DNA from: Methylobacterium sp. | GTDB taxonomy: Bacteria > Pseudomonadota > Alphaproteobacteria > Rhizobiales > Beijerinckiaceae | Length of the DNA stretch: 19,101 nucleotides | Assembly (NCBI GenBank): GCA_021154065.1 | Contig: JAJKJG010000243.1 | Span: 1-19,101 of the forward strand | Reading direction: 5' to 3' | Part shown: positions 6,182 to 17,171 of the stretch, one piece after another | Numbering within the stretch: the stretch's first letter is position 1 | Layout: the number at the start of each line of letters is the position of its first letter | The notes under the pieces: generated by a model | Database searches by the model: none | Seen by the model: only the letters and a program-made list of their open reading frames with translations | Told to the model about the DNA's origin: nothing | Program-made: the position numbers and the translations under genes

Positions 6182-7012
6182 ATGGCGTCACCATCCCATC
6201 CCCTGCGCGGCCTTGCGGCGGCGGCCCTCGTCGCGCTCGCAGCCGGCGGATGCCTGAAGCGCGGGCCGGCGGACGTCACGGGCTCGACCGGGCCGGTCGA
6301 GGCGGGGCGCCGCGACGCGCAGGCGTGGGCGGCGCGCTTCGAGGCCAACCCCGGCGACGGCGCCGCCGCGATCGGCTACGCCGCCGCGCTGCGCCAGAGC
6401 GACCAGCACGCCCAGGCGGTCGCCGTCCTGCAGCAGGCGGCGATCCGCAATCCCAAGGACCTGCCGCTCCTCGCTGCCTACGGCAAGGCGCTTGCCGACA
6501 CCGGCCGCTACAAGGAGGCGTCCGAGGTACTCGGCCGGGCGCATCTGCCGGAGAAGCCGGACTGGCGCATCCTGTCGGCGCAGGGCGCCGTCGCCGACCA
6601 GCTCGGCGACCACTCGCTGGCGCAGCGCTACTACGAGGCGGCGCTCAAGATCGCCCCGGGCGAGCCGACGGTGCTGTCCAATCTCGGCCTATCCTATGCG
6701 CTCTCGAAGCGCCTCGCCGACGCCGAGAAGACGCTGAGAGCCGCCGCCGCGACGCCGGCGGCCGACGCGCGCGTGCGCCAGAACCTCGCCCTCGTGCTCG
6801 GCCTCGAGGGCAAGTTCGCCGACGCCGAGGAGGTGCTCCGCCGCGACCTCCCGCCGGCCGAGGCCGCCGCGAACCTCGCCACCCTGAAGACCATGGTGGC
6901 CCAGCCGAACAGCTGGAAGGCGATCAAGAGCGCCGAGGACAAGAAGCCGGCGAAGGCATCGAAGGTCCGCGCCGCCGCGGCGAAGCCGGCGGAGTCGACG
7001 CCGACGGAATAG
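6182..7012 (+). CDS. tadD: TPR lipoprotein, TadD-like pilus assembly protein
   Basis: Predicted outer-membrane-associated lipoprotein of 276 residues. It has a signal peptide with a lipobox-like LAAGGC (Cys24; Ala rather than Leu at -3), then tetratricopeptide repeats from about residue 50 to 220 (for example LPLLAAYGKALADTGRYKEA and PTVLSNLGLSYALSKRLADA). The tail is Lys/Ala-rich. In Tad systems TadD is a TPR lipoprotein needed for Flp pilus secretion or assembly. The segment VRQNLALVLGLEGKFADAEE and the DLPPAEAAANLATLK motif match alphaproteobacterial TadD as I remember it. A GGAG lies 8 bp before the ATG. Transcription converges with the next gene. The remaining tad genes sit about 9 kb away on the other strand. 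A generic TPR lipoprotein is the alternative. Confidence 0.8.
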   Translation: MASPSHPLRGLAAAALVALAAGGCLKRGPADVTGSTGPVEAGRRDAQAWAARFEANPGDGAAAIGYAAALRQSDQHAQAVAVLQQAAIRNPKDLPLLAAYGKALADTGRYKEASEVLGRAHLPEKPDWRILSAQGAVADQLGDHSLAQRYYEAALKIAPGEPTVLSNLGLSYALSKRLADAEKTLRAAAATPAADARVRQNLALVLGLEGKFADAEEVLRRDLPPAEAAANLATLKTMVAQPNSWKAIKSAEDKKPAKASKVRAAAAKPAESTPTE

Positions 7013-7031
7013 ACCCCTCAGCCGGACCGCC

Positions 7032-7805
7032 TCACGGCACCTCTGCCCACTCGTCTTGCGCAGCGGCAAGAATGCCCGACACCTGATCGCATGCCATCAG
7101 CAGCGGGAAGGTGAACTCGGCCAGATCCTTGCCGGCCTGCGAGTCGCTTGGATAATGCAAGCCCAGGACCTCGCGGTTCCGCGCGATCCGCTGCGCCATC
7201 GCGTGTAGCGCGGTCGGAGGTTCAGGCGTCGGCGGAGGGGGCGAGGTCGGCGCCGGGGTCAGGCTCCAAACATCCTGCGGCAGGATTTCCTCGAGCACCC
7301 TCGCGACGAGATATGCCTCCGTCGCGTGGCCGCTCGGATAGGCGGCATGCGCCGGAACCGCGATCGGCGGCATCAGCACCGGATACAGTTGCGACGGCCG
7401 CGGCCGGTTCCAGTAGGCCTTGTGCCACATGGCCTGGAACTGCGCGATCTGCATCGCGATCGTGACGATTCGGAAAGTCTTCGGATGCGAGCCCGGAGCG
7501 AAGCTCCAGAGCCCACAGAAGTAGCCGACGATATTGTTCCGCTGCGCCAGCGCCTCGGCGAGCACGCCCGGCCGATACTCGATGAGCTCGGCAAGCGCGT
7601 CGAGCTCGTCCGCGACAGGATAGCTGCCATAGTCGGGAAGCGTGAAGTCGATCCAGGTATTGCCGTCACCGTCTGAAGCCTGCACGAACTCGCCGATAGT
7701 CGCGATGCCGAGCAGTTGCGATGACCAGGCGCCGGCCGGAAAAGCGATGTCGCCGAGCCGTTTGTGCAACGCGACTTGCCGTTCAGCACCTCGCCCGGCG
7801 GCCAC
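7032..7805 (-). CDS. Vanadium haloperoxidase/PAP2-superfamily enzyme, 5' end frameshifted
   Basis: The intact 257-residue frame has all three PAP2/vanadium-haloperoxidase motifs in order: KAYWNRPRP (K-x6-RP), YPSGHATEA (PSGH) and NREVLGLHYPSD (R-x5-H-x3-D). Such enzymes bind phosphate or vanadate; members are acid phosphatases or haloperoxidases, and the substrate cannot be told here. The GTG at 7805 is probably not the true start. Convincing coding sequence continues upstream in another frame (7912 to about 7777: MNLAGSGRDASPVV, ETWYRGNKWPPGEVLNGK). One extra base in the A-run at about 7776 would fuse it to KVALHKRLGDIAF, giving about 293 residues. No signal peptide is seen in either version. 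It lies downstream of the cyclase gene on the same strand and may share its transcript. Confidence 0.8.
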   Translation of the reverse strand: MAAGRGAERQVALHKRLGDIAFPAGAWSSQLLGIATIGEFVQASDGDGNTWIDFTLPDYGSYPVADELDALAELIEYRPGVLAEALAQRNNIVGYFCGLWSFAPGSHPKTFRIVTIAMQIAQFQAMWHKAYWNRPRPSQLYPVLMPPIAVPAHAAYPSGHATEAYLVARVLEEILPQDVWSLTPAPTSPPPPTPEPPTALHAMAQRIARNREVLGLHYPSDSQAGKDLAEFTFPLLMACDQVSGILAAAQDEWAEVP

Positions 7806-7908
7806 TTATTGCCGCGGTACCAGGTCTCCGGCGGCACCTTCTCGAGCGCGGGCGACACCCCGATGGGGCGCACCACCGGGCTGGCGTCGCGTCCGCTCCC
7901 CGCAAGGT

Positions 7909-7980
7909 TCATATGCCGTCCATGCCATCCATGCCGTCCATGCCGTCCATGCCGTCGGCCGGCCCGATTCCGCCCCTCAT
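7909..7980 (-). CDS. 23-residue Gly-Met-Asp repeat ORF, possibly the true start of the haloperoxidase gene
   Basis: A strong Shine-Dalgarno (AAGGGAGG, 7987-7994) lies 6 nt before an ATG at 7980. That ATG opens MRGGIGPAD followed by four GMD units and GI, ending at a TGA that overlaps the ATG at 7912 of the haloperoxidase N-terminal segment (ATGA). Either it is a short leader peptide that couples translation, or a further lost base at about 7912 has split one protein that began with the repeat. The 7912 ATG has no good ribosome-binding site of its own, which favours the second reading. Nothing can be said about function. Confidence 0.4.
   Translation of the reverse strand: MRGGIGPADGMDGMDGMDGMDGI
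7914..7956 (+). repeat. 9-bp tandem repeat, 4.8 copies
   Basis: TGCCGTCCA is repeated with period 9, with one C-to-A-type change in the second unit (TGCCATCCA). On the minus strand it encodes the Gly-Met-Asp tandem at the start of the haloperoxidase locus. Copy number changes would keep that frame because the unit is three codons long. Confidence 0.92.
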
Positions 7981-8022
7981 GGTCATCCTCCCTTGGGTCG
8001 AGCCCGTCCGAGGCGCGGGCGT

Positions 8023-9819
8023 TCACTCCGGTAATTCGGCCTTGCGCAGATGTGCCACGCAGGCCTCGCGAACTGTCGGATCGCAGAATGGGATCGTGAT
8101 GCTGGCATAGATACTTACCCGAAAACTCGGATCCTGCGCCAACAAACGCCTGCCGATCTCGCGCGCCTCCTCGAGGCGATCGAGGGCCGCAAGGGCGACG
8201 ATGAGCCCACGGAGTGTCGAGGTATAGCCCGGGTTCTCGCTTGCCGAGACGCGGCCCCATCTCAGAGCCTCCTCGAAGTTGCCGCTGGCGTAATGGGCCA
8301 TCGCGAGGAACCCGTAACAGACGTACAGGTCGCGGTCGAAGGGAGACAATCGCAACGCACGCTCGGCGCGCTCGATGGCCTCCCGTCCGCGCCCGAGATA
8401 ACTCATCGTCGCGCTCGACAAGATCCAGGCAAGAGCGAGGTTCGGGCACGCGGAGAGGGCGCGATCGAAATAGAAAAGCGCGCTCTCGCATTCCTGGAAC
8501 AGGAACGAGCGCACGTGACCGTAGGTGGCGAGCGCCACGGCATTGCCCTTGTCGAGGTCGATGGCGCGCAGCGCCAGCCTCGCGGCCTCGCCGGCGTCGG
8601 CCTTCCAATCCTGCGACCAGCCCTGCCCGATACTGATGCTGTGCCAACGCGCCGCCCAGGCGAACGGCATGGCGAAATTCGCGTCGTGCTGCATCGCTTG
8701 ATCGAGGAAGACCCGGGCCTGCGGGAAATTCGTGCGATCGAGTTTGCTGAGCACCTCGAGGGCACGCAGCATGCAGTCGTAGGCGGTGAACACCTCCGGC
8801 CGCTTGCGCATCGCCCGCTGCAGCTCGGCGCTGCGGACGTTCGGCGCGATGCCGCCGACGATCTTCGAGACGATGCGATCCTGCACCTCGAACAGCTCTT
8901 CGGTGCCGACCTCCATCTGCTCGGCCCAGAGCGCGGCGCCGGTCGCGGCCTCGCAGAGCTGGCTCGACACCCGCACCGTGCCGCCCAGACGGCGGATGCT
9001 GCCGGTCAGCACGTAGCGCACCCCGAGCGCGCGCCCGACCTCGCGCGGATCGGGCTGCCGGCCGCTGTAGAAGAGCGTCGAGGCGCGCGAGATCACCATC
9101 AGCTCGCGCAGGCCGGCGAGCGACATGATGATGTCATCGACGACGCCGTCGGCGAAGTACTCGTTCTTCGGATCGCCGCCGAGATTCCAGAACGGCAGCA
9201 CCGCGATCGAGGGCAGCGTCGTCTCGAGGGTCGAGACCGGAACGGCAAGGGCGGGCCGCGGCGGATCGAGCGCATAGGCGCGTACCGGCCCTTCGAAGTT
9301 CTTCAGCCGTAGCAGCCCGAGGTCGCGGGCGGCGGCGCCGACCGTGCCGCGCAACAGCTCGCGCGCCGTCTCGGACAAGATGATGCCGCCGGGCGGCGCG
9401 TGCTCCTGCAGCCGCGCCGCGAGGTTGACGCCGTCGCCGTAGATGTCGCTGCGGCCGCTGACCACCTCGCCGATGTGGATCGCGATCCGGAGCGCGATGA
9501 GGTCCTCGGCGCCCTTCGGTTCCGCGCTGCGCGGCACCCCGACCTGCACGGCCTGCGCCCATTCGACCGCGTCGAGCGCGCTCGGGAACTCCGCCAGCAC
9601 GCCATCGCCGGTCGACTTTACGATCACCCCATGGTGCCTGGCGGCCTCAGGACGGATGATCTCCTCGAGGATCGACATCCAGCGGGCGTGCGTGCGCCGC
9701 TCGTCCGACGCCATCAGGATCGAGTAGCCTACGATGTCGGTGAAGGCGATCGCCGCGAGCCGGCGCCGGTCGCGCCCGGCACGGGGTCTCTCGCTGCGCT
9801 CCTTGCGGGCCGGAACCAT
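8023..9819 (-). CDS. Class III adenylate/guanylate cyclase with TolB-like and TPR regions
   Basis: Predicted cytosolic cyclase making cAMP (or cGMP). With the ATG at 9819 it has 598 residues. The cyclase domain (about 17-190) shows both metal aspartates (Asp28 in FTDIVGYS, Asp72 in STGDG), the base-contact lysine in IVKSTGDG, and DIYGDGVNLAARLQ; it looks catalytically complete. A TolB/FlgO-like segment follows (about 202-330: PSIAVLPFWNLGG, GVRYVLTGSIRR), then TPR-like helices to the C-terminus. This three-part layout is common in Rhizobiales multi-cyclase families. The frame extends to an ATG at 9942, but those 41 residues look non-conserved and would leave only 25 bp to the divergent subtilase gene, so I prefer 9819. 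Its stop lies 42 bp before the start of the repeat ORF of the haloperoxidase locus. Confidence 0.86.
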   Translation of the reverse strand: MVPARKERSERPRAGRDRRRLAAIAFTDIVGYSILMASDERRTHARWMSILEEIIRPEAARHHGVIVKSTGDGVLAEFPSALDAVEWAQAVQVGVPRSAEPKGAEDLIALRIAIHIGEVVSGRSDIYGDGVNLAARLQEHAPPGGIILSETARELLRGTVGAAARDLGLLRLKNFEGPVRAYALDPPRPALAVPVSTLETTLPSIAVLPFWNLGGDPKNEYFADGVVDDIIMSLAGLRELMVISRASTLFYSGRQPDPREVGRALGVRYVLTGSIRRLGGTVRVSSQLCEAATGAALWAEQMEVGTEELFEVQDRIVSKIVGGIAPNVRSAELQRAMRKRPEVFTAYDCMLRALEVLSKLDRTNFPQARVFLDQAMQHDANFAMPFAWAARWHSISIGQGWSQDWKADAGEAARLALRAIDLDKGNAVALATYGHVRSFLFQECESALFYFDRALSACPNLALAWILSSATMSYLGRGREAIERAERALRLSPFDRDLYVCYGFLAMAHYASGNFEEALRWGRVSASENPGYTSTLRGLIVALAALDRLEEAREIGRRLLAQDPSFRVSIYASITIPFCDPTVREACVAHLRKAELPE

Positions 9820-9967
9820 CGCGGATCGTGCTTTCGCTCTTCGAGGGTCCCGGCTGTTCACGGCAGCGTCGCCGCAATATGCTGCCTGCCGGCGCATCGG
9901 CGCAAGGCGCATGCACGCCATGGTCCACCTGCCTGGCGGCATGAGCGTTAAAGCGGAGTGAACGGCA

Positions 9968-11414
9968 ATGGCCGATCCGTCCGGTAAGTCTCCATCAGGC
10001 GCGCAGGAGGCGCCGCGGCGCTACTACGCGTTGTTCCCCCCGCAAGGCGAGCTGCTCGAGCTCTACCGGCGGGGCGAGTTGAAGGCGATCATCGCCTTCT
10101 TCCAGCAGGAGTTCGCCAAAGCCGGCTTCCGGCATCTCGCCGCCACGAGCTTCGAGGTGTCGCTGCCGGCGCCGCGATGGCGCTTCGTCGGCGACCTGCC
10201 CGGCAAGGGCGACGCTGCCGCCGGCGCGGCGGCGCCGGACGTCGGCAAGGTGGCGCCGGGCGACTTCGACCCCGCACGACTGCTCCTCGCCTACGAGTTC
10301 GACGATCCGAGTTGGGGCCCGGAGTTCCTCGCCTTCCTCGACAAATGGCTCGTCGGCGTCGAGAAGCCGATCGTCGGCGTCGACCTGCGCCTCGACTTCG
10401 CCGAGCACTGGTGCCCCTCGGAAGCAACGAGCCCGATCTTCGGCACGCGCCGCGATGCCGGGCGGCTGGGGCTCGCGCGGCACGGCTGCACCGGCGAGCG
10501 CGTCAACGTCGTGATCGTCGACGAGGGTCTCGACGCGGCGCTGATCCCGAACTTCGGCGGCGGCTGGATCAGCGGCGGCGGCGCGCCCGGCACGACGAAG
10601 CGCGGCCACGGCGTGATGGTCGCCCGCAACGCGCTGCAGGCGGCGCCGCAGGCGCGGCTCTTCGACTGCCGCATCATTCCCGAGCGCATCGGCACCGTCG
10701 GCCATTTCATGAGCGACGTGCAGGCGGCGGTGCAGCAGATGCTCATCGACATCGCGCTGCATCGCCTGCTCGGCTACTGGCGCGAGCCGTGGGTGTTCGT
10801 CAACGCCTGGGCGCTGTTCCAGGCCTCGCAGGACCCGGACGGCAACTACAGCCGCAATCCGCTGCATCCGATCAATCTGCTCATCGACTTCATCGACGCC
10901 CAGGGCCACGACATCGTTTTCGCGGCCGGGAACTGCGGCCAGTTCTGCCCGAATTCGCGCTGCGACTGGGACGCCGGCCCCGGCAACACCATCCTCGGCG
11001 CGAACTCGCATCCGAAGGTGCTGACCGTCGGCGCCGTGCGCACCGACGGGCTGTGGCTCGGCTACTCGTCGCAAAGGGCCGGGTCAGCCGGAGCTTTCAC
11101 CTGGCAGTCCGAAGCGCGCCGAGGAGAAGCCGGACCTGTGCGCGCCGAGCCAGTTCTGCGAAGACGCCGACGCGCACGCCTTCAGCACCGGCACCAGCGC
11201 CGCCTGCGGCATCGCGGGGGGCGTCGTCGCGGCGATCCGAACCACCTGCCCGCCGAGCGCGCTTTCGCCGGGACAGCTGCGCGAAGCGCTGCGGAGGACG
11301 GCCAGGAAGCCGTGCGGGCCGCGGTGGGACGATCGGCTCGGTTACGGCGTCCTCGATGCCGCCGCCGCGGCGGACGAGGCGACGAAGGCGTGTCCCGCCG
11401 CGGCCGCCGCTTAA
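9968..11414 (+). CDS. Cytosolic subtilisin-like serine protease (S8) with one-base frameshift
   Basis: Subtilase with the Asp-His-Ser layout: Asp185 in VVIVDEGLD, His214 in KRGHGVMVA, oxyanion Asn322 in FAAGNCG and Ser410 in FSTGTSAACG. The serine is reached only after a frame change near 11075. The first frame reads GLWLGYSSQ and then becomes nonsense up to 11542. Dropping one A from CAAAGGG restores SSQGPGQPEL, a normal subtilase sequence, and continues through GTS to a TAA at 11412-11414, giving 481 residues. There is no signal peptide. The first 170 residues (RRYYALFPPQGELLELYRR) are an N-terminal region I do not recognise. The motifs deviate from secreted subtilases: HGVMVA replaces HGTHVAG, and the Ser motif lacks the usual proline. 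Strand and position make it divergent from the cyclase gene. Confidence 0.85.
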
Positions 11415-11462
11415 CCACGCCGTCAAGCGCCGCTTCACCATCGCTTAACCTTCTGCGAAGGT
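11408..11462 (+). promoter_or_regulatory. Repeated TTAACC boxes and small inverted repeat upstream of the Gly/Arg-rich gene
   Basis: CGCTTAACC occurs at 11408-11416 and again at 11442-11450, with a degenerate CGCTTCACC at 11431. The second copy runs into an inverted repeat ACCTTC-TGC-GAAGGT (11448-11462). The sequence lies 77 bp before the ATG at 11539. A similar CGCTAACCTTCT precedes the small exported protein gene at 5638. A promoter or operator is plausible but not proven. Confidence 0.3.
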
Positions 11463-11538
11463 CGGCCTCCTCCTGCGCGCGGCGGCTCAGGACCCTCTCA
11501 CTCGGCATGGGCGTGCGCGCCCGGGAAGGGTCTCGACG

Positions 11539-12138
11539 ATGAAGCGGATCGCGCTCCTGGCGACACTCGTCGCCGCCATCGTGATTTCGGACGGCGCCTC
11601 CGCCCGCGGCGGCGGCGGCTCTCGCGGCGGCGGCCTGCGCTCTTCCGGGGTCGCGCACGGCGGTCCGGGGTGGAGCGGTTTCTCGGCCGGGCAAGGCCGG
11701 TTCGCGCTCGCGGTCCGGGCCGGGGTGTCCCGCCGAGCGCTCTCGCATGGCGCCGTCCGGCAGGCGCGCATCGGCCACAGCGTCGCCGGGCGCGGCCATC
11801 GCGCCGTCGTCCCCGGCAGGTTCGCCGCGGTCTCGAGAGCCGTCCGCTGGCATCATCACCCGGGCCGCGGCTGGCGGCGCTTCGACGCCGGCTTCGATCC
11901 GGCCTCCGGCGTGGGATTTGGGGCCGTAGCATTGCCCGGCGATCCGGGCCTCGAGGGGCCCGGCGACCCGCCGCTCGCTTTCGGCCCCGGCGGGCCGGTG
12001 CTCGATGACGGCATCGCCGCCGTCACCACCCGGACCGGGGTCGCCTACGCGACTGAGGACGCGCCGGGCTCGATCCGCCGCACCCATGAGCTCGGCCATC
12101 CGCGTCCGTACTTCCCGCGCCGGCGCGGCCACAACTGA
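11539..12138 (+). CDS. Gly/Arg/His-rich exported protein of unknown function
   Basis: A 199-residue protein with a typical signal peptide (MKRIALLATLVAAIVI, likely cut after ASA at residue 22). A low-complexity mature region follows: a Gly-rich start (RGGGGSRGGG), repeated HG/GH and Arg-Ala segments, a WHHHPGRGWRR patch near residue 110, and a Gly/Pro-rich acidic part (PGDPGLEGPGDPP). There is no recognisable domain. AAGGG lies about 10 bp before the ATG. It is unrelated in sequence to its neighbours. The RHHxxGRGWRR type of patch recalls small cell-surface proteins of Rhizobiales, so an envelope location is the only inference I would make. A chance open frame in GC-rich DNA is less likely because of the signal peptide. 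Confidence 0.65.
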   Translation: MKRIALLATLVAAIVISDGASARGGGGSRGGGLRSSGVAHGGPGWSGFSAGQGRFALAVRAGVSRRALSHGAVRQARIGHSVAGRGHRAVVPGRFAAVSRAVRWHHHPGRGWRRFDAGFDPASGVGFGAVALPGDPGLEGPGDPPLAFGPGGPVLDDGIAAVTTRTGVAYATEDAPGSIRRTHELGHPRPYFPRRRGHN

Positions 12139-12208
12139 CGCGACCGAGCCGCCGTCGGCCCTCGATGAGTCATGCGCGCCGTCCTGGAGTTCGACGCGCT
12201 TGGAGCGC

Positions 12209-13564
12209 TTAGCCCGAGGCGGCGCTCGTCAGCGCGGCCTCGGCAACATCCGCAATCGAGGCATCGTTCGGGTTCGGGAAGCCGATCCGCTGGGCGAGGT
12301 CGGGGCGGTACAGCAACTTGGCCAAGCGGATGACCGCGCTTGCGATGCGCGGCTTCTCGTCCGCCGGCCACGTCGCGAGCCATTGGACGAACTGCTCGAT
12401 CTTGTCGCGATCCGCCGCGCGGTTCAGGGCTCCGCTCTGCACCAGGTGGGCGACGTGATGGACGAGGGGCGGCTTGCGCATGAAGCTGGGCTCCAGGACG
12501 TAAAGGCCCGGGCGGTACATGTCGCTTTCCTGCAGAAGGTAGGCGTGGACCGCGCGAAGCCTGAGGCCCGGCGTTGCCTTGAAGTCACCGTTAGCGTTCT
12601 GAATCCATGCCGTCTGGCCGATCGTGGCGATGGTTGCGGCGCGGATGAATTCGTTGGCCAGGTCGCCCGGCTCGATCCGCTCGAGGACATCCAAGGCGAT
12701 GTCGGTCAGCGGCGCGCGCGCATCGTCCTTGGCATAAAATGTCAGCAGCGTTCCGAGCCGCGTGACGCACTCGGGATTGTCGGCGTGAATCCGGCACCAG
12801 ACCGCCGCGTCCGCCACGATGCCGAGCGGCAGGTTCGGCTGCCGCAGGATGAACTTCAGCAGGTGCAGCGGTTCGGGACGTTTGAGGTTGCGCCTTAGCC
12901 AGGCGAAGGCGAACTCTTCGATAACGTCGAAGTTCCCGCCCGCATTGGCCCACCCTGCCATCACGTGATCGATGTCGTCTCGGCCCCGATGCAGTTCCAG
13001 CCAGCGGCGGACGTCCTGCGCGATGGCGTCGACGCCGCCCTTGGCATGGAGCCACGCTCGGTAGACGAACTGCGCCTCGGGGATGTTGGCATAGCGATCG
13101 AGCCAGCGGCGGACGTCCGCCGCGACGGCGTCAACGCCGCCCTCGGCGTCGAGCCGCGCGGCGTAGACGTGACTCGCCTCAAGAGTGTCGGCATGGTGGT
13201 CGAGCCAGCGGCGGATGTCCGCCGCGACGGCATCGACGCTCCCCTCGCCGCCGAGCCATGCGGCATAGACGAACCGTGCCTCGGAGATCTCGGCATGGCG
13301 GTCGAGCCAGCGGCGGATGTCCTGCGCGACCGCGTCGACATCGCCCCCGGCGTCGAGCCAAGCCCGATAGACGTGATTCGCCTCCGGGATCTCGGCATGA
13401 CGGTCGAGCCAGCGGCGAATGTCGTGCGCGACCGCATCGACGCCGCCCCTGGCGTCGAGCCACGCGCAATAGACGTAACTCGCCTCGGGAATCTCCCCAT
13501 GTCGAACAACCAGCGACGCATGTCCGGCGCGACGGCCTCGGCGCCGCCGCCGGCATCGAGCCAT
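12209..13564 (-). CDS. C-terminal part of the frameshifted STAND nuclease: repeat solenoid and C-terminal domain
   Basis: This is the continuation of the gene that begins at 16023, not an independent protein. The first 18 residues (MARCRRRRRGRR...) are an out-of-frame artefact, and real coding begins at VVRHGEIPEASY near 13507. It holds 34-residue repeats 5-9 complete (each about EASxVYRAWLDAxGG-VDAVAxDIRRWLDRHAEIP), a degenerate tenth unit (DHVMAGWANAGGNFD), and a helical C-terminal domain of about 220 residues. That domain (LHLLKFILRQPNLPLG...KLLYRPDLAQRIGFPNP) is not recognised. In STAND proteins this part usually recognises the trigger. One base restored at about 13505 gives a single protein of about 1271 residues. 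It ends 70 bp from the convergent Gly/Arg-rich gene. Confidence 0.85.
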   Translation of the reverse strand: MARCRRRRRGRRAGHASLVVRHGEIPEASYVYCAWLDARGGVDAVAHDIRRWLDRHAEIPEANHVYRAWLDAGGDVDAVAQDIRRWLDRHAEISEARFVYAAWLGGEGSVDAVAADIRRWLDHHADTLEASHVYAARLDAEGGVDAVAADVRRWLDRYANIPEAQFVYRAWLHAKGGVDAIAQDVRRWLELHRGRDDIDHVMAGWANAGGNFDVIEEFAFAWLRRNLKRPEPLHLLKFILRQPNLPLGIVADAAVWCRIHADNPECVTRLGTLLTFYAKDDARAPLTDIALDVLERIEPGDLANEFIRAATIATIGQTAWIQNANGDFKATPGLRLRAVHAYLLQESDMYRPGLYVLEPSFMRKPPLVHHVAHLVQSGALNRAADRDKIEQFVQWLATWPADEKPRIASAVIRLAKLLYRPDLAQRIGFPNPNDASIADVAEAALTSAASG

Positions 13565-16023
13565 GCGGTGTAGACGAACCGCGCCTCACCTAGCTCGGCG
13601 TGGCAGTCAAGCCAGCGGCGAACATCTCGTGCGATAGGTTCGATGCCACCCTTGGCCTTGAGCCACGCGCGATAAACGTAACTCGCCTCCGAGAGATCGC
13701 CATGGCGGTCGAGCCAAACCGAAAGATGCGATCGGACCGCTTCCGCGTCCTCGCTCTCATTTAGCCAAGTGTCGAAAACGAAGCTTGCCTTTCGGTTGGA
13801 CCAAGCGTGTAACAGAAGCCATTGGTTTACCACAGCCGCGACGGCGTCCGGCGATCTCCCCGCCTTCAGCCAGGCCACGATCAGGAAGTGCGTCTGGTGA
13901 TCGTCGGGCGCGCCTCTCATCTCGGCGAGCGCCCGCTCCGCGAAGCGGTCCGGATCGAGGGCGAAGGCGCGGCGCAGCAGGAGGTTCGACCGCTGCTCGT
14001 CACGATCCAGCGCGACCTCGAGGATCGGCTCGATGACGACGGCGCCGCGAGCGCGCAGAGATTCGTCGCCCGAGCGCGCGAGCCTCTCGGCCAAATACGA
14101 GAGCGGCCCATGGCAAGCAGGATCCTCGGCTAGCTCGCGGGCAAGCGCGGCGTCCTCCGCGATGAGCCCGACCAAACCCGCCGGCGCGAGAAGGCGGCTG
14201 CGAAGCAGCGCCTGCGCCACGGCAGCGAGCGCCTGCGGATCCTGCTCGCGGACCGATCGCATCAGCGCCGCGCCGTCGAGCTCGCCGAACCGGCCATGAC
14301 CCGCAAGCCGGTCGAGCGCCGCCAGCGCGCGCCCGAGCGCGCCGGCCGCCTGCGCCTCCCGCAGCATCGCGCGGGCGCGCGGCTGCGGCTGGATGCCGGC
14401 CTCGAACATATGGGCCGCGAGGAGCGCATCGGCGAAGACGTCGTGCGCGGCGAGAAGTGCGCCCTCATCGTCGTCGAACCAGCCGTCGGCAACGAAGGCG
14501 TCGACGATCGCCGAGGCGGCGTCGTTCGCGACGCGCAGGCGCTGAGTTTCCTGCACCGACAAGGGCAGCATGGCGGCGATTTCCGCCGTCCGCCGCAGGA
14601 CCTCGGCCCGGCTGCCGCCGAGGCGCTTGAGCGTGAGGGCAATCCGCCTGCGCGCCCACTGCTCGAAACTCGTCTCGGCGGCGAGCCCCTGGAACAGCCG
14701 CGCGAACGTCTCCGGCCGGTCTTCGTGCAGATGGAGCGCGAACGCGGCGAGCACCGGCAGACCCGCGCAGACGGCGGCGAGCCCGGCAATGGTCTCGATG
14801 CCGCCATGGGCGAGGATGCGCCGGACGACCCAATCGAGATACGCGCCGGCGTGCGGGCCGCTCTCCGCCCCGGCGAGCATCAACCGCCTGACGCCAAGAT
14901 CCTCGAGCGTCTGCTGCACGGTCGAGACGGCGCTCGCCCGGCAGGTCGCAACGAGGCGCAGGCGATGCCCGGCAGCATTGGCGGCCTCGATCGCCGCCGC
15001 GATCGCTGCAAGCTGGTTCTGCGCCTCGGCGTAGTCGACGAAGAGCAGGACGTCCGCGGCCTCCATATGGGACCGCGCGAGCTCCTCGACGGCACGATCG
15101 TCGGCCCGCTGTCCGCAGGAGAGGGCGAGCATGCCTTGCCGCTCGGCGGCGCGTGCGATCTCCAGCGCAAGGCGCGTCTTGCCGATCCCGCCCGGCCCCC
15201 CGACGACCAGCGCCGGCCGCGAGCCTTCGCTGAGCTCGGCGAGAAGCAGGTCCGGGTCGGGATGGAGGCCGCCGGTCGGAATGCCGCTCTCGCGCGCGAA
15301 CTCGGCAAACGAGAAGTACGGCAGGGACGCCGCGTCGAGGAACTTGCGGAAGGTGCGCGCGGACGCCGAGGCGTAGGCGTCGACCGCCGTCAAGCCAGCC
15401 GGAAGTCTGCCGAACCATCTGTAGCGCAGCGTCGGTCGCCGGGCGAGAACGCTCGCAAAGTGCTGTCCGCCGCGGACCTGGACGACGATTCGAGCCAGAT
15501 GATCCAACCTCGGATGCAGCTTGGAGATCGCCTCGAAGTCCCGCTCGATCTCGCCCTTCAGCCGGTCCACGGCGGATTCGTTGGCGAAGGTCGTGCTGAT
15601 GCAGAACCAGTATGCCGTGATGGCGCGCTGACGATCGAGCCAAGGGGCATGCGGCGAGGTCAGGACCTTCGCCTCCTCCTTTCCGCAGAGCTCCGGCAGC
15701 GTTTCCTTGAGGACCGAGGCGACCCTGCGCCAATCGCTTTCGGGACCATCGTCCCGCGCGTCGCTATGGAACTTGCACTCCAGCGCGGTTCGTCGGCCGT
15801 CACCCTGATCGATCAGGTCGATGCCGCCGTCGCGCCCGCGAACCGGATGCTGGACAAGATCCGGAAACTCGGTCGAGCTAAGCGCTTCCCAGACGAACTG
15901 TTGGAAGGCGCGACCGACATCCTCCCGCACGAGTATGCGGCGCTCGAAATCGAGGTTCGACGGATCGGGCGGCGAGAGCGTCATCTGCAAGTTGCATGTT
16001 AAGCTTTCGCCGAGCGATGTCAC
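12961..16023 (-). CDS. N-terminal part of a STAND NTPase with PD-(D/E)XK nuclease (Avs-like), frameshifted
   Basis: Domains: an Mrr-like restriction-endonuclease fold (about 25-190) with Asp69 in GRDGGIDLI and Glu82/Lys84 in ALECKFH; then a STAND P-loop NTPase with Walker A GGPGGIGKT (275-283), Walker B VLLFVDYAEAQ (Asp330), an Arg finger/sensor-like VATCRAS (Arg362) and the NB-ARC-type GLP motif (CAGLPVLAAF, about 420); then a helical winged-helix-like region (470-700) and the start of a repeat solenoid. Real coding ends at RRWL, residue 839 (13507); the remaining 180 residues of the open frame are an out-of-frame reading of the repeats. The start may be GTG 16023 or ATG 15984; neither has a clear ribosome-binding site. 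Nuclease plus STAND plus repeats is the layout of antiviral Avs proteins, where phage protein binding triggers DNA cleavage. The role here is inferred. Confidence 0.9.
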   Translation of the reverse strand: MTSLGESLTCNLQMTLSPPDPSNLDFERRILVREDVGRAFQQFVWEALSSTEFPDLVQHPVRGRDGGIDLIDQGDGRRTALECKFHSDARDDGPESDWRRVASVLKETLPELCGKEEAKVLTSPHAPWLDRQRAITAYWFCISTTFANESAVDRLKGEIERDFEAISKLHPRLDHLARIVVQVRGGQHFASVLARRPTLRYRWFGRLPAGLTAVDAYASASARTFRKFLDAASLPYFSFAEFARESGIPTGGLHPDPDLLLAELSEGSRPALVVGGPGGIGKTRLALEIARAAERQGMLALSCGQRADDRAVEELARSHMEAADVLLFVDYAEAQNQLAAIAAAIEAANAAGHRLRLVATCRASAVSTVQQTLEDLGVRRLMLAGAESGPHAGAYLDWVVRRILAHGGIETIAGLAAVCAGLPVLAAFALHLHEDRPETFARLFQGLAAETSFEQWARRRIALTLKRLGGSRAEVLRRTAEIAAMLPLSVQETQRLRVANDAASAIVDAFVADGWFDDDEGALLAAHDVFADALLAAHMFEAGIQPQPRARAMLREAQAAGALGRALAALDRLAGHGRFGELDGAALMRSVREQDPQALAAVAQALLRSRLLAPAGLVGLIAEDAALARELAEDPACHGPLSYLAERLARSGDESLRARGAVVIEPILEVALDRDEQRSNLLLRRAFALDPDRFAERALAEMRGAPDDHQTHFLIVAWLKAGRSPDAVAAVVNQWLLLHAWSNRKASFVFDTWLNESEDAEAVRSHLSVWLDRHGDLSEASYVYRAWLKAKGGIEPIARDVRRWLDCHAELGEARFVYTAWLDAGGGAEAVAPDMRRWLFDMGRFPRRVTSIARGSTPGAASMRSRTTFAAGSTVMPRSRRRITSIGLGSTPGAMSTRSRRTSAAGSTAMPRSPRHGSSMPHGSAARGASMPSRRTSAAGSTTMPTLLRRVTSTPRGSTPRAALTPSRRTSAAGSIAMPTSPRRSSSTERGSMPRAASTPSRRTSAAGWNCIGAETTSIT
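12977..13689 (-). repeat. Seven in-frame 102-bp repeats encoding a 34-residue solenoid unit
   Basis: The marker GTCGAGCCAGCGGCG recurs on the plus strand at 13199, 13301 and 13403, exactly 102 bp apart, and the protein repeats every 34 residues. Units 3-9 of the solenoid lie here: 7 x 102 bp minus the one missing base at about 13505, which makes 713 bp. More degenerate units flank it (to about 13905 and 12875). Conserved positions are EA..VY.AWL..GG and the second-helix core RRWLDRH. Two residues after EA and the K/G/R/E before GG vary. Each unit looks like a two-helix hairpin of TPR length but without the TPR consensus. Confidence 0.95.
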
Positions 16024-16193
16024 GTCGCCGGCACCGGCTTTTCGCGAGCGGCGCCTGTCAAATCGGCGCCGCCGATGACCCGTCGAAGGAGCAAGGCCCG
16101 CCCGCGCCCGTCCGCCCGGCCTCGTCGGGCGTTGGTGTGCTGCCGATCAGAGGAATTGCTTCACGTGGCACATCGGCCGCGCGAGCCGGAGGC
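16024..16193. other. Spacer between tadC and the STAND gene
   Basis: This 170-bp stretch lies downstream of tadC and upstream of the STAND gene on the same strand, so it should hold a terminator for the tad transcript and/or a promoter. I see only a GC hairpin CGCCCG/CGGGCG (16113-16131) without a T-tract, and a short GAGCC/GGCTC palindrome at the tadC stop. No convincing -35/-10 pair is visible, so read-through from the tad operon is possible. Confidence 0.3.
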
Positions 16194-17171
16194 TCACTTC
16201 CAGCCAAAGACCTGGATCAGCGCCGGCGTCATGATGACCACGAACAGCACCGGCAGGAAGAACAGGATCATCGGCACGGTCAGCTTCGGCGGCAGCGCCG
16301 CGGCCTTCTTCTCGGCCTCGTTCATGCGGATGTCGCGGCTCTCCTGCGAGAGCACGCGTAGCGCCTGCCCGAGCGGGGTGCCGTAGCGCTCCGCCTGGAT
16401 CAGCGCGGTGGTGATCGACTTCACGGCCTCGAGCCCGGTGCGGTTGCCGAGATTCTCATAGGCCTGCCGCCGCTCGGCGAGATAGGACAGCTCGGCGGTC
16501 GTGAGCGCGAGCTCCTCGGCGAGCGGGATGCATTGCGAGCCGACCTCGCCGGCAACGCGCCGGAAGGCCTGCTCGATCGACATGCCGGATTCGACGCAGA
16601 TCAGGAGCAGATCGAGGGCGTCGGGCCAGGAGCGGCGCATCACCACCTGGCGCTTCGAGATCGCGTTCGAGAGATAGATCTCGGGCGCCTTGACGCCGAG
16701 ATAGGCCGCGACGAGGACGCCGCCGAGCTTGAACAGCACCGGCATCGCGACGATCTTGAGCACGAACAGGTAGAAGCCGGCGATGAGGATCATGGCGATC
16801 GGCATCACCAGCCTGAAGAACAGGAACGCGACCTCCGAATGCTGGCCGCGGTAGCCGGCCATGACGAGCTGGTTCCGGGCGCTCTGCGTGCCGAGCCAGT
16901 CGTTGAGCTTGAAGCGGTCGACGGTCTGCTTCATGTAGGCTTTCGGAGCCTGGCGCAGCGACACCTTCTGCTGGGTCTTCGAGAGCCGTTCACGCTCGCG
17001 GGCGCGGATCTTGTCGCGCTCGAGGGCGACCGCCTTCATGCGCCGGCCGAGGCTGTCGCCCTCGACGAGGGGCATCGCGACGGTGAACACCGTCGCGGCG
17101 GCCGCGATCCCGACCAGGATCATGGCCATGAACTGCGGGTCGCTGAGTTTGCTGTAGAGAAGGGCAATCAT
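16194..17171 (-). CDS. tadC: TadC, inner-membrane platform protein of the Tad pilus (T2SSF family)
   Basis: A polytopic membrane protein of 325 residues. It pairs with TadB as the GspF-like platform that couples the TadA ATPase to Flp pilin extrusion. Visible are an N-terminal membrane segment (FMAMILVGIAAAATVFTVAM), a cytosolic basic stretch, two adjacent membrane helices around 120-170 (PIAMILIAGFYLFVLKIVAM), the T2SSF domain from about 185 to 290 (WPDALDLLLICVESGMSIEQ), and a last helix (PMILFFLPVLFVVIMTPAL). AAGGCG stands 5 bp before the ATG. It starts 21 bp after the tadB stop, so the two are co-transcribed. Length and topology are normal and no lesions are seen. Confidence 0.94.
   Translation of the reverse strand: MIALLYSKLSDPQFMAMILVGIAAAATVFTVAMPLVEGDSLGRRMKAVALERDKIRARERERLSKTQQKVSLRQAPKAYMKQTVDRFKLNDWLGTQSARNQLVMAGYRGQHSEVAFLFFRLVMPIAMILIAGFYLFVLKIVAMPVLFKLGGVLVAAYLGVKAPEIYLSNAISKRQVVMRRSWPDALDLLLICVESGMSIEQAFRRVAGEVGSQCIPLAEELALTTAELSYLAERRQAYENLGNRTGLEAVKSITTALIQAERYGTPLGQALRVLSQESRDIRMNEAEKKAAALPPKLTVPMILFFLPVLFVVIMTPALIQVFGWK

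Follow-up and report, generated by a model that had tools for sequence, protein, structure and literature searches.

A disrupted copy of a probable Avs-like defense protein with a TPR-like repeat sensor in a Methylobacterium tad locus

The window, by which we mean the whole 19,101-nucleotide Methylobacterium stretch analyzed here, carries on its minus strand a gene that is probably (at roughly 0.77, on our estimate) a disrupted copy of a single-gene Avs-like, i.e., bacterial NLR-like, defense protein that forms a family of its own and works by the mechanism proposed below. The shorter designation, an Avs-like defense protein of a separate family, is well supported. We favor a role in defense because the motifs are conserved, the nearest folds are those of Avs proteins, the effector is swapped in a relative, the distribution is patchy, copies lie in prophage and integrase contexts, and the tad site that the gene occupies is nearly empty in three of four relatives. 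The features on which the argument draws are as follows.

6182-7012, tadD-like TPR gene, flanking the insert
7013..16193, no strand, 9.2-kb insert between tadC and the tadD-like TPR gene (gap comparison with four relatives)
12209..12874, minus strand, C-terminal helical cap after the array (AlphaFold mean pLDDT of 91 for the C-terminal piece; alignment with relatives)
12209-13564, minus strand, ORF 2, later repeats and cap (ORF calling)
12875..13893, minus strand, about ten 34-residue helix-turn-helix units (TRF, structure model, unit alignment)
12961-16023, minus strand, ORF 1, nuclease, ATPase, and first repeats (ORF calling)
13480..13530, minus strand, frame change between ORF 12961-16023 and ORF 12209-13564, within a repeat unit (ORFs, three-frame view)
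13894..14388, minus strand, all-helical connector from the ATPase to the repeats (predicted structure)
14389..15426, minus strand, STAND ATPase with C-terminal helical/winged part, residues ~200-545
15025..15051, minus strand, Walker B VLLFVDYAE, residues ~325-333 (sequence and 29-row alignment)
15175..15198, minus strand, Walker A GPGGIGKT, residues 276-283 (sequence and 29-row alignment)
15469..15951, minus strand, nuclease-like domain, residues ~25-185, with G63xDGxID69 ... E82-C83-K84 (conservation, secondary structure, weak profile matches)
15772..15837, minus strand, predicted catalytic signature GRDGGID...LECK, residues 63-84 (29-row and nuclease-only alignments)
16194-17171, tadC, flanking the insert

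Gene layout and the change of frame

The ORF list and a three-frame view confirm that the features of the STAND gene are real, lie on the minus strand, and are split over two reading frames; the switch in the homologous reading falls within a repeat unit, close to position 13,505. An earlier sequence-only reading had described one protein of about 1271 residues; the two frames rule out such a single open frame, and 1271 is the length of the stretch. The analysis treated 13513-16023, with 837 residues, and 12209-13507, with 432 residues plus stop, as separate pieces. Judging from the starts of relatives, the gene more likely begins at the ATG at 15984 than at the GTG at 16023; the residue numbers of motifs given here count from the frame start at 16023.

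The second frame amounts to 432 codons without a stop and shows 25-41% identity in alignment with relatives. A protein named from a Microvirga sp. MAG (P0005) matches the window piece at 100% identity over their shared part and leaves the frame at the point where the window gene does; it later regains the original frame, whereas the window gene stays shifted, so that the two records differ within this repeat. The frame change could reflect either a decaying island or a repeat that is hard to sequence or assemble, and the window copy may be dead or misassembled. Programmed frameshifting, weighed by eye, was set aside as an explanation, since intact relatives need none. Elsewhere in the window, the 3' part of a subtilase-like gene (9968-11542, plus strand, and the following frame) is split between two frames like that of the STAND gene; it displays D, H, and GTSxA motifs by eye and has no Pfam match.

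We give even odds to the window copy, as distinct from the family, being a dead relict, i.e., the frameshifted passenger of an old, decaying island, a reading that is compatible with our main one. The two frames, the split subtilase-like neighbor, and the exit of the Microvirga-named record at the same point all agree with decay; against it stand the length of the stop-free second frame, its alignment with relatives, and the disagreement of the two records over whether the original frame is regained.

Nuclease-like domain, STAND ATPase, and relatives

Protein searches recovered at least 52 related proteins, a figure that is a lower bound because about 8,000 candidates were scored per search; three of these (P0003, P0004, and P0005) share 88-100% identity with the window. 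The N-terminal residues G63, D65, G66, I68, D69, E82, C83, and K84 are kept in at least 90% of 29 aligned sequences, one row of which (P0046) is without the nuclease, and a separate nuclease-only alignment covered 6 loci. At least 200 residues precede Walker A in 42 of the 52 relatives, and 37 of these 42 fit the nuclease motif pattern. Of the remaining five, four read by eye as variants with ESK (P0025), DFK (P0047), or ECK with an altered first motif (P0043) or as a truncated protein (P0039); the fifth is P0046, where a trypsin-like domain stands in place of the nuclease.

The PD-(D/E)XK core has the order alpha-beta-beta-beta-alpha-beta, with the D ... (D/E)xK residues on adjacent strands. 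In the window protein, strands are predicted at residues 70-72, 79-84, 137-142, and 180-184 and helices at 36-49 and 94-113; the model of the N-terminal piece (mean pLDDT of 88) places E82 and K84 within strand 79-84, with D69 adjacent to strand 70-72. This predicted order of helices and strands fits the core, and by motif and modeled topology the domain is a candidate member of the PD-(D/E)XK class. Profile matches among the six nuclease domains at E ≤ 1 were weak: Mrr_cat with three (best, 0.017, below the cut-off), LmuA with three (best, 1.6e-4), and Mrr_cat_2 and PDDEXK_15 with one each; a profile search against PDB sequences gave no significant match for the domain. Weak as they are, the profile matches point one way, and we predict the N-terminal domain to be a PD-(D/E)XK nuclease. 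It thus resembles Lamassu LmuA and the Mrr-type nucleases at the level of these matches and differs from them in being fused to a STAND module.

The central region reads GPGGIGKTR at residues 276-284 (Walker A), and a GLP motif, CAGLPVL, begins at residue 419. G276, G278, G279, G281, K282, T283, D330, Y331, and E333 are invariant in all 29 aligned sequences; conservation on this scale argues that neither the nuclease nor the Walker motifs arose by chance. Foldseek searches with the ATPase region returned Avs3, SAMD9, Avs4, and Avs5 as top PDB matches, and the Foldseek and VIA matches taken together include Avs proteins, NLRs, and Apaf-1. The Foldseek TM-scores to Avs chains are low (0.17-0.25), and in VIA the clamp loaders, at about 12, score almost as high as Avs5 at 14.1. 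At the profile level, Pfam nSTAND_NTPase5 (PF25199) matches 17 and nSTAND3 8 of the 29 members at 1e-3, and the window scores 27 bits for the former, below the curated 34. Taken on its Walker A and B motifs, its modeled AAA+/STAND fold, and its predicted helical/winged arm, the region is a STAND ATPase. The order of nuclease, STAND ATPase, and C-terminal solenoid that had been proposed from the letters of the sequence, along with the nuclease residues, the Walker pair, the GLP motif, and a solenoid of about ten units, was thus recovered by the conserved motifs, the Avs and SAMD9 fold matches, and the solenoid model.

The N-terminal domain is not constant in the family. P0043, with a nuclease, and P0046, with a trypsin-like domain, are 62% identical over 653 residues running from the ATPase into the array, and their N-termini do not align; PF13365 is listed for P0046, Trypsin_2 matching 1 of the 29 members. 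Over the corresponding part, identity between P0046 and the window piece is 31%. Judging from these alignments, one effector can take the place of another, as the trypsin-like protease does for the nuclease in one relative. Exchange of effectors on a single receptor is characteristic of defense STAND systems. Trypsin-like proteases are fused in AVAST, Lamassu, and Hachiman, and the variant seen here recalls the fused protease of AVAST (excerpt of PMC12799240).

The family is rare and scattered. In genome samples, a relative was found in at least 3 of 385 genomes of the class of G001, at least 5 of 396 of its order, at least 1 of 9 of the order of G037, and at least 1 of 297 of the phylum of G002, these three center genomes being counted among the matches. 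Among 119 genomes of a family with related tad genes, with few candidates scored per genome, none was found. Seven of the eight matching genomes have a stop-free open frame of 1079-1487 residues, and the copy in G508 runs off its contig. Scans of genome contigs with the single window protein gave no match, whereas scans with the alignment gave at least 11 loci; among the matches listed, L001 and L002 alone cover most of the N-terminal piece. At 1e-5, tblastn detected no relative in 72,556 plasmid records or 50,697 phage records, nor did blastn in distant mode against plasmids or a search of viral contigs that started from the trypsin-type relative.

Avs sensors are built of degenerate repeats. 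The proteins described here share with Avs1-Avs4 (AVAST) an N-terminal effector, predicted from motif and topology to be a nuclease, a central STAND module, and C-terminal helical repeats, and the first PDB fold matches are 8dgc (Avs3) and 8dgf (Avs4). They differ in having a regular 34-residue array and in length, the frames in the seven genomes being shorter than the solved Avs4 and Avs3 chains of about 1530-2030 residues. With PADLOC, ten families were matched by the 29 members at 1e-3; the sole Avs model among them, Avs1b, matched one member, and no Avs model matched the window. A profile search of PDB sequences gave matches at E ≤ 1, none of them an Avs chain. By profile, then, we rejected membership in the known Avs1-4 families, and as Avs1b in a single member is the only Avs model matched, a separate family, already suggested by the sequence-only reading, is likely. 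Avs5 (SIR2-STAND) differs in its effector, a SIR2 NADase (excerpt of PMC12931631) as against the nuclease-like domain here. Among the titles and abstract openings of the open-licence literature, we did not recognize this family as described.

Repeat array and its variation

TRF reports a 102-bp period with 7.0 copies at 12999-13716, and ten to eleven 34-residue units can be counted in the window by eye. AlphaFold models the C-terminal piece as helix pairs followed by a helical cap (pLDDT 91). In VIA, this solenoid matches importins and further alpha-solenoids, an arrangement that is common; Foldseek gave no match for it at 0.001. A fold search against viral structures returned nothing at E ≤ 0.001. 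The units have the length and the two helices of a TPR unit, and in Pfam neither window piece matches a TPR family at E ≤ 0.1. The suggestion that the repeat is not of the TPR consensus therefore stands for the window, but TPR_14 matches one of the 29 family members at 4e-13, and TPR-like is for this reason the name we prefer for the units.

The unit consensus was drawn from 24 arrays with 34-residue units, a set that counts the second frame of the window twice (P0002 and winB). It reads x-A-x-F-V-Y-x-A-W-L-D-A-x-G ... W-L-x-x-H-G, and A2, W9, L10, and W26 hardly vary. Unit length is uniform inside most proteins and varies between them; it is 34 in most, 36 in P0021, 43 in P0014, P0020, P0024, and P0028, and 45 in P0043 and P0046. 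A sister form of 1242 residues, P0048 (L031 5785-9513, minus strand), has the same nuclease and ATPase motifs with a different repeat of roughly 39 residues (AxFVLAPLLxRxDL...).

The mean identity of units within a protein ranges from 0.37 to 0.85 (21 arrays), against an average of 0.44 between proteins, and in many members the units resemble those of their own protein more than those of other proteins. Of the 37 arrays tested, 10 have three units in a row with a mean identity of 0.85 or above, the highest value for three units being 0.94; the window, at 0.70, falls short of what marks NLRs with high internal repeat conservation, at least 85% identity over at least 100 residues of repeats. The unit consensus and the 37-array counts leave aside P0001, P0003, P0005, and arrays with too few units, and the latter count also P0008 and P0048-P0050. 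A pair of Rhodobacter proteins is instructive here: P0019 and P0021 are 87% identical over residues 1-700, their arrays consist of six 34-residue units plus one of 36 versus eight 36-residue units plus one of 34, and one unit position differs between all 5 and all 8 of the units compared. Such a pattern would be expected if units were copied along the array. The two proteins also make a ready pair for tests of sensor specificity.

The most variable unit positions are on average 3, 7, 1, and 34 (24 arrays), position 3 being among the top five in 15 of 26 arrays. Over six arrays it is also the most changed (30 of 365 differences), a count equaled by 1 of 5000 uniform draws in which any position outside five conserved core positions could be hit, with units that share descent and with exposure uncontrolled. 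In adjacent units of five arrays, pN is about four times higher at positions 3 and 7 (0.371) than elsewhere (0.096, excluding 3, 7, and 11); pS is also higher there (0.378 versus 0.204), so that pN/pS is about 1 and not above. In the prophage array, which departs from the pattern, positions 13, 27, 24, and 34 lead. Because synonymous change is also raised and the prophage array deviates, we treat the variable positions 3 and 7 as a lead. The helix-A residues of 160 units are commonly polar or basic at these positions (position 3, Q 44, R 33, S 31; position 7, R 54, K 35).

Internally near-identical repeats, differences in unit number, and a few variable positions per unit are also features of the fungal HNWD/HIC NLRs of the HET-D/HET-E type, which belong to another kingdom and combine WD, ANK, or TPR repeats with HET and NACHT parts (excerpts of PMC4986451 and PMC12222747). 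Diversifying selection has been demonstrated for those receptors, as against the pN/pS of about 1 here. We tentatively suggest, at somewhat less than even odds, that the sensor evolves as the fungal incompatibility receptors do: units would be homogenized across the array, unit length would switch array-wide (34, 36, 43, 45), helix-A positions 3 and 7 would vary, and recognition would be retuned stepwise by gain, loss, or copying of units of roughly 102 bp.

Genomic context and proposed mode of action

The 9.2-kb insert lies in a gap between tadC and tadD that, measured between aligned ends, spans 128-199 bp in three of the four relatives examined, taken from 91 genomes with a matching tadB, and 2.16 kb in the fourth. 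Its cargo comprises the STAND gene, a PAP2 gene, a cyclase gene with TPRs, the subtilase-like gene recognized by eye, and one or more small genes, and the gap looks like an integration hot spot. The fourth relative (L049 7911-10069) holds other cargo there, desaturase-like and methyltransferase-like frames by eye, while L050-L052 are nearly empty. The cyclase-TPR gene of the window (8023-9942, minus strand) has an adenylate/guanylate cyclase domain and a weak PADLOC match to a Pycsar cyclase (5.5e-7), and a 9-bp tandem repeat of 4.9 copies lies between two insert genes at 7913-7956.

The excisionase-integrase interval is a usual site for superinfection-defense cargo in prophages. An intact relative of 1274 residues with about ten units occurs in IMG/VR record IMGVR_UViG_2889187427_000003 (L053 8022-11846), flanked by a Cox-like excisionase and an integrase; the same 38-kb record holds terminase, portal, head protease, major head, tail, and tape-measure genes. 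Of seven bacterial loci, two have integrase-family neighbors by Pfam: in L026 (G566), the relative directly follows a tyrosine integrase (7478-8752) and precedes IS21 genes, and in L027 (G638), a relative whose array has at least sixteen 34-residue units (8261-12703, minus strand) lies about 1.1 kb from an integrase-family gene (6221-7192, plus strand; E = 1.4e-9). Each of the seven genomes has 4 to 15 integrase matches in all, so that such nearness would be uncommon by chance. rpoA and rplQ are neighbors in most bacteria; in Sphingomonas sp. DG1-23, the relative (L001, about 9977-13860) sits between them, in an interval that also holds a gene resembling a TonB-dependent receptor. At L002, L028, L030, and L031, the neighbors have no evident tie to defense or mobility.

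By eye, no conserved partner gene accompanies the relatives at the seven loci, and PADLOC found no clear defense gene among their 40 neighbors, which were called by a custom script and may include some wrong-strand frames. At 1e-5, eight families matched one neighbor each: mad3 (8e-37), DrmD (1e-33), mad8 (3e-17), two AriA models, ATPase-Toprim, SduA, and ShosT; individual scans of ten of the 40 yielded no match. The DrmD match, in G566, is the IstB gene of an IS21 element that this genome carries in five equal copies, and the mad3 model hits dozens of sites in every one of the seven genomes and in 14 of 14 control genomes, so that neither supports a defense neighbor. The defense role proposed from the sequence is supported by the prophage copy and the two integrase-linked loci.

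We propose that in the resting state the C-terminal TPR-like solenoid would act as the sensor and hold the ATPase closed. A foreign protein, most likely of a phage, would bind the solenoid, whereupon the STAND ATPase would bind ATP and oligomerize; oligomerization would bring the N-terminal PD-(D/E)XK domains together and switch on DNA cleavage, by which the infected cell would be killed or arrested. The scheme is modeled on Avs (excerpt of PMC12931631), and it is by analogy that we infer ligand binding, ATP-dependent oligomerization, DNA cleavage, and cell death or another abortive outcome in a protein that would work like an Avs while lying outside Avs1-4 by the profiles tested.

An unlikely alternative is that these are STAND signaling or regulatory proteins whose nuclease domain serves a role internal to the cell, such as stress response, DNA repair, or development. 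STAND ATPases do include regulators such as MalT (excerpt of PMC10427625), most of the seven bacterial relatives show no evident link to defense, as between rpoA and rplQ in DG1-23, and clear defense neighbors were not found. Yet in the DefensePredictor E. coli set, 17% of known defense genes lie within ten genes of another (excerpt of PMC13092281), which makes missing defense neighbors weak counter-evidence. A housekeeping role is disfavored because each of the seven loci has other neighbors, nearly all sampled genomes lack the gene, one copy is prophage cargo, two stand beside integrases, and effectors are swapped.

TALE or PPR arrays read a polymer unit by unit, and the unit length of 34, the near-identical units of some members (up to 0.94), and the polar or basic residues common at helix-A positions 3 and 7 could suggest a sensor that reads a repetitive nucleic acid or filament in the same way; we consider this the least probable reading, as the variable positions are modestly enriched and absent from some arrays, such as that of the prophage, and TPR-like solenoids usually bind proteins. 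The triggers of Avs1-4, moreover, are phage proteins (excerpt of PMC12931631).

The sensor is the most interesting part of the Avs-like protein, because in many members, much as in the incompatibility receptors of fungi, its units are more alike within a protein than from one protein to another. Should intact members confer protection against phage, they would add to the Avs-like proteins a family that the defense profiles used here do not name. With a sensor so modular, the units and residues that set specificity would be directly addressable by removing or exchanging units. The family would then also offer a bacterial counterpart to the fungal repeat-shuffling receptors, in a host amenable to the laboratory (P0021 being named from Rhodobacter capsulatus).
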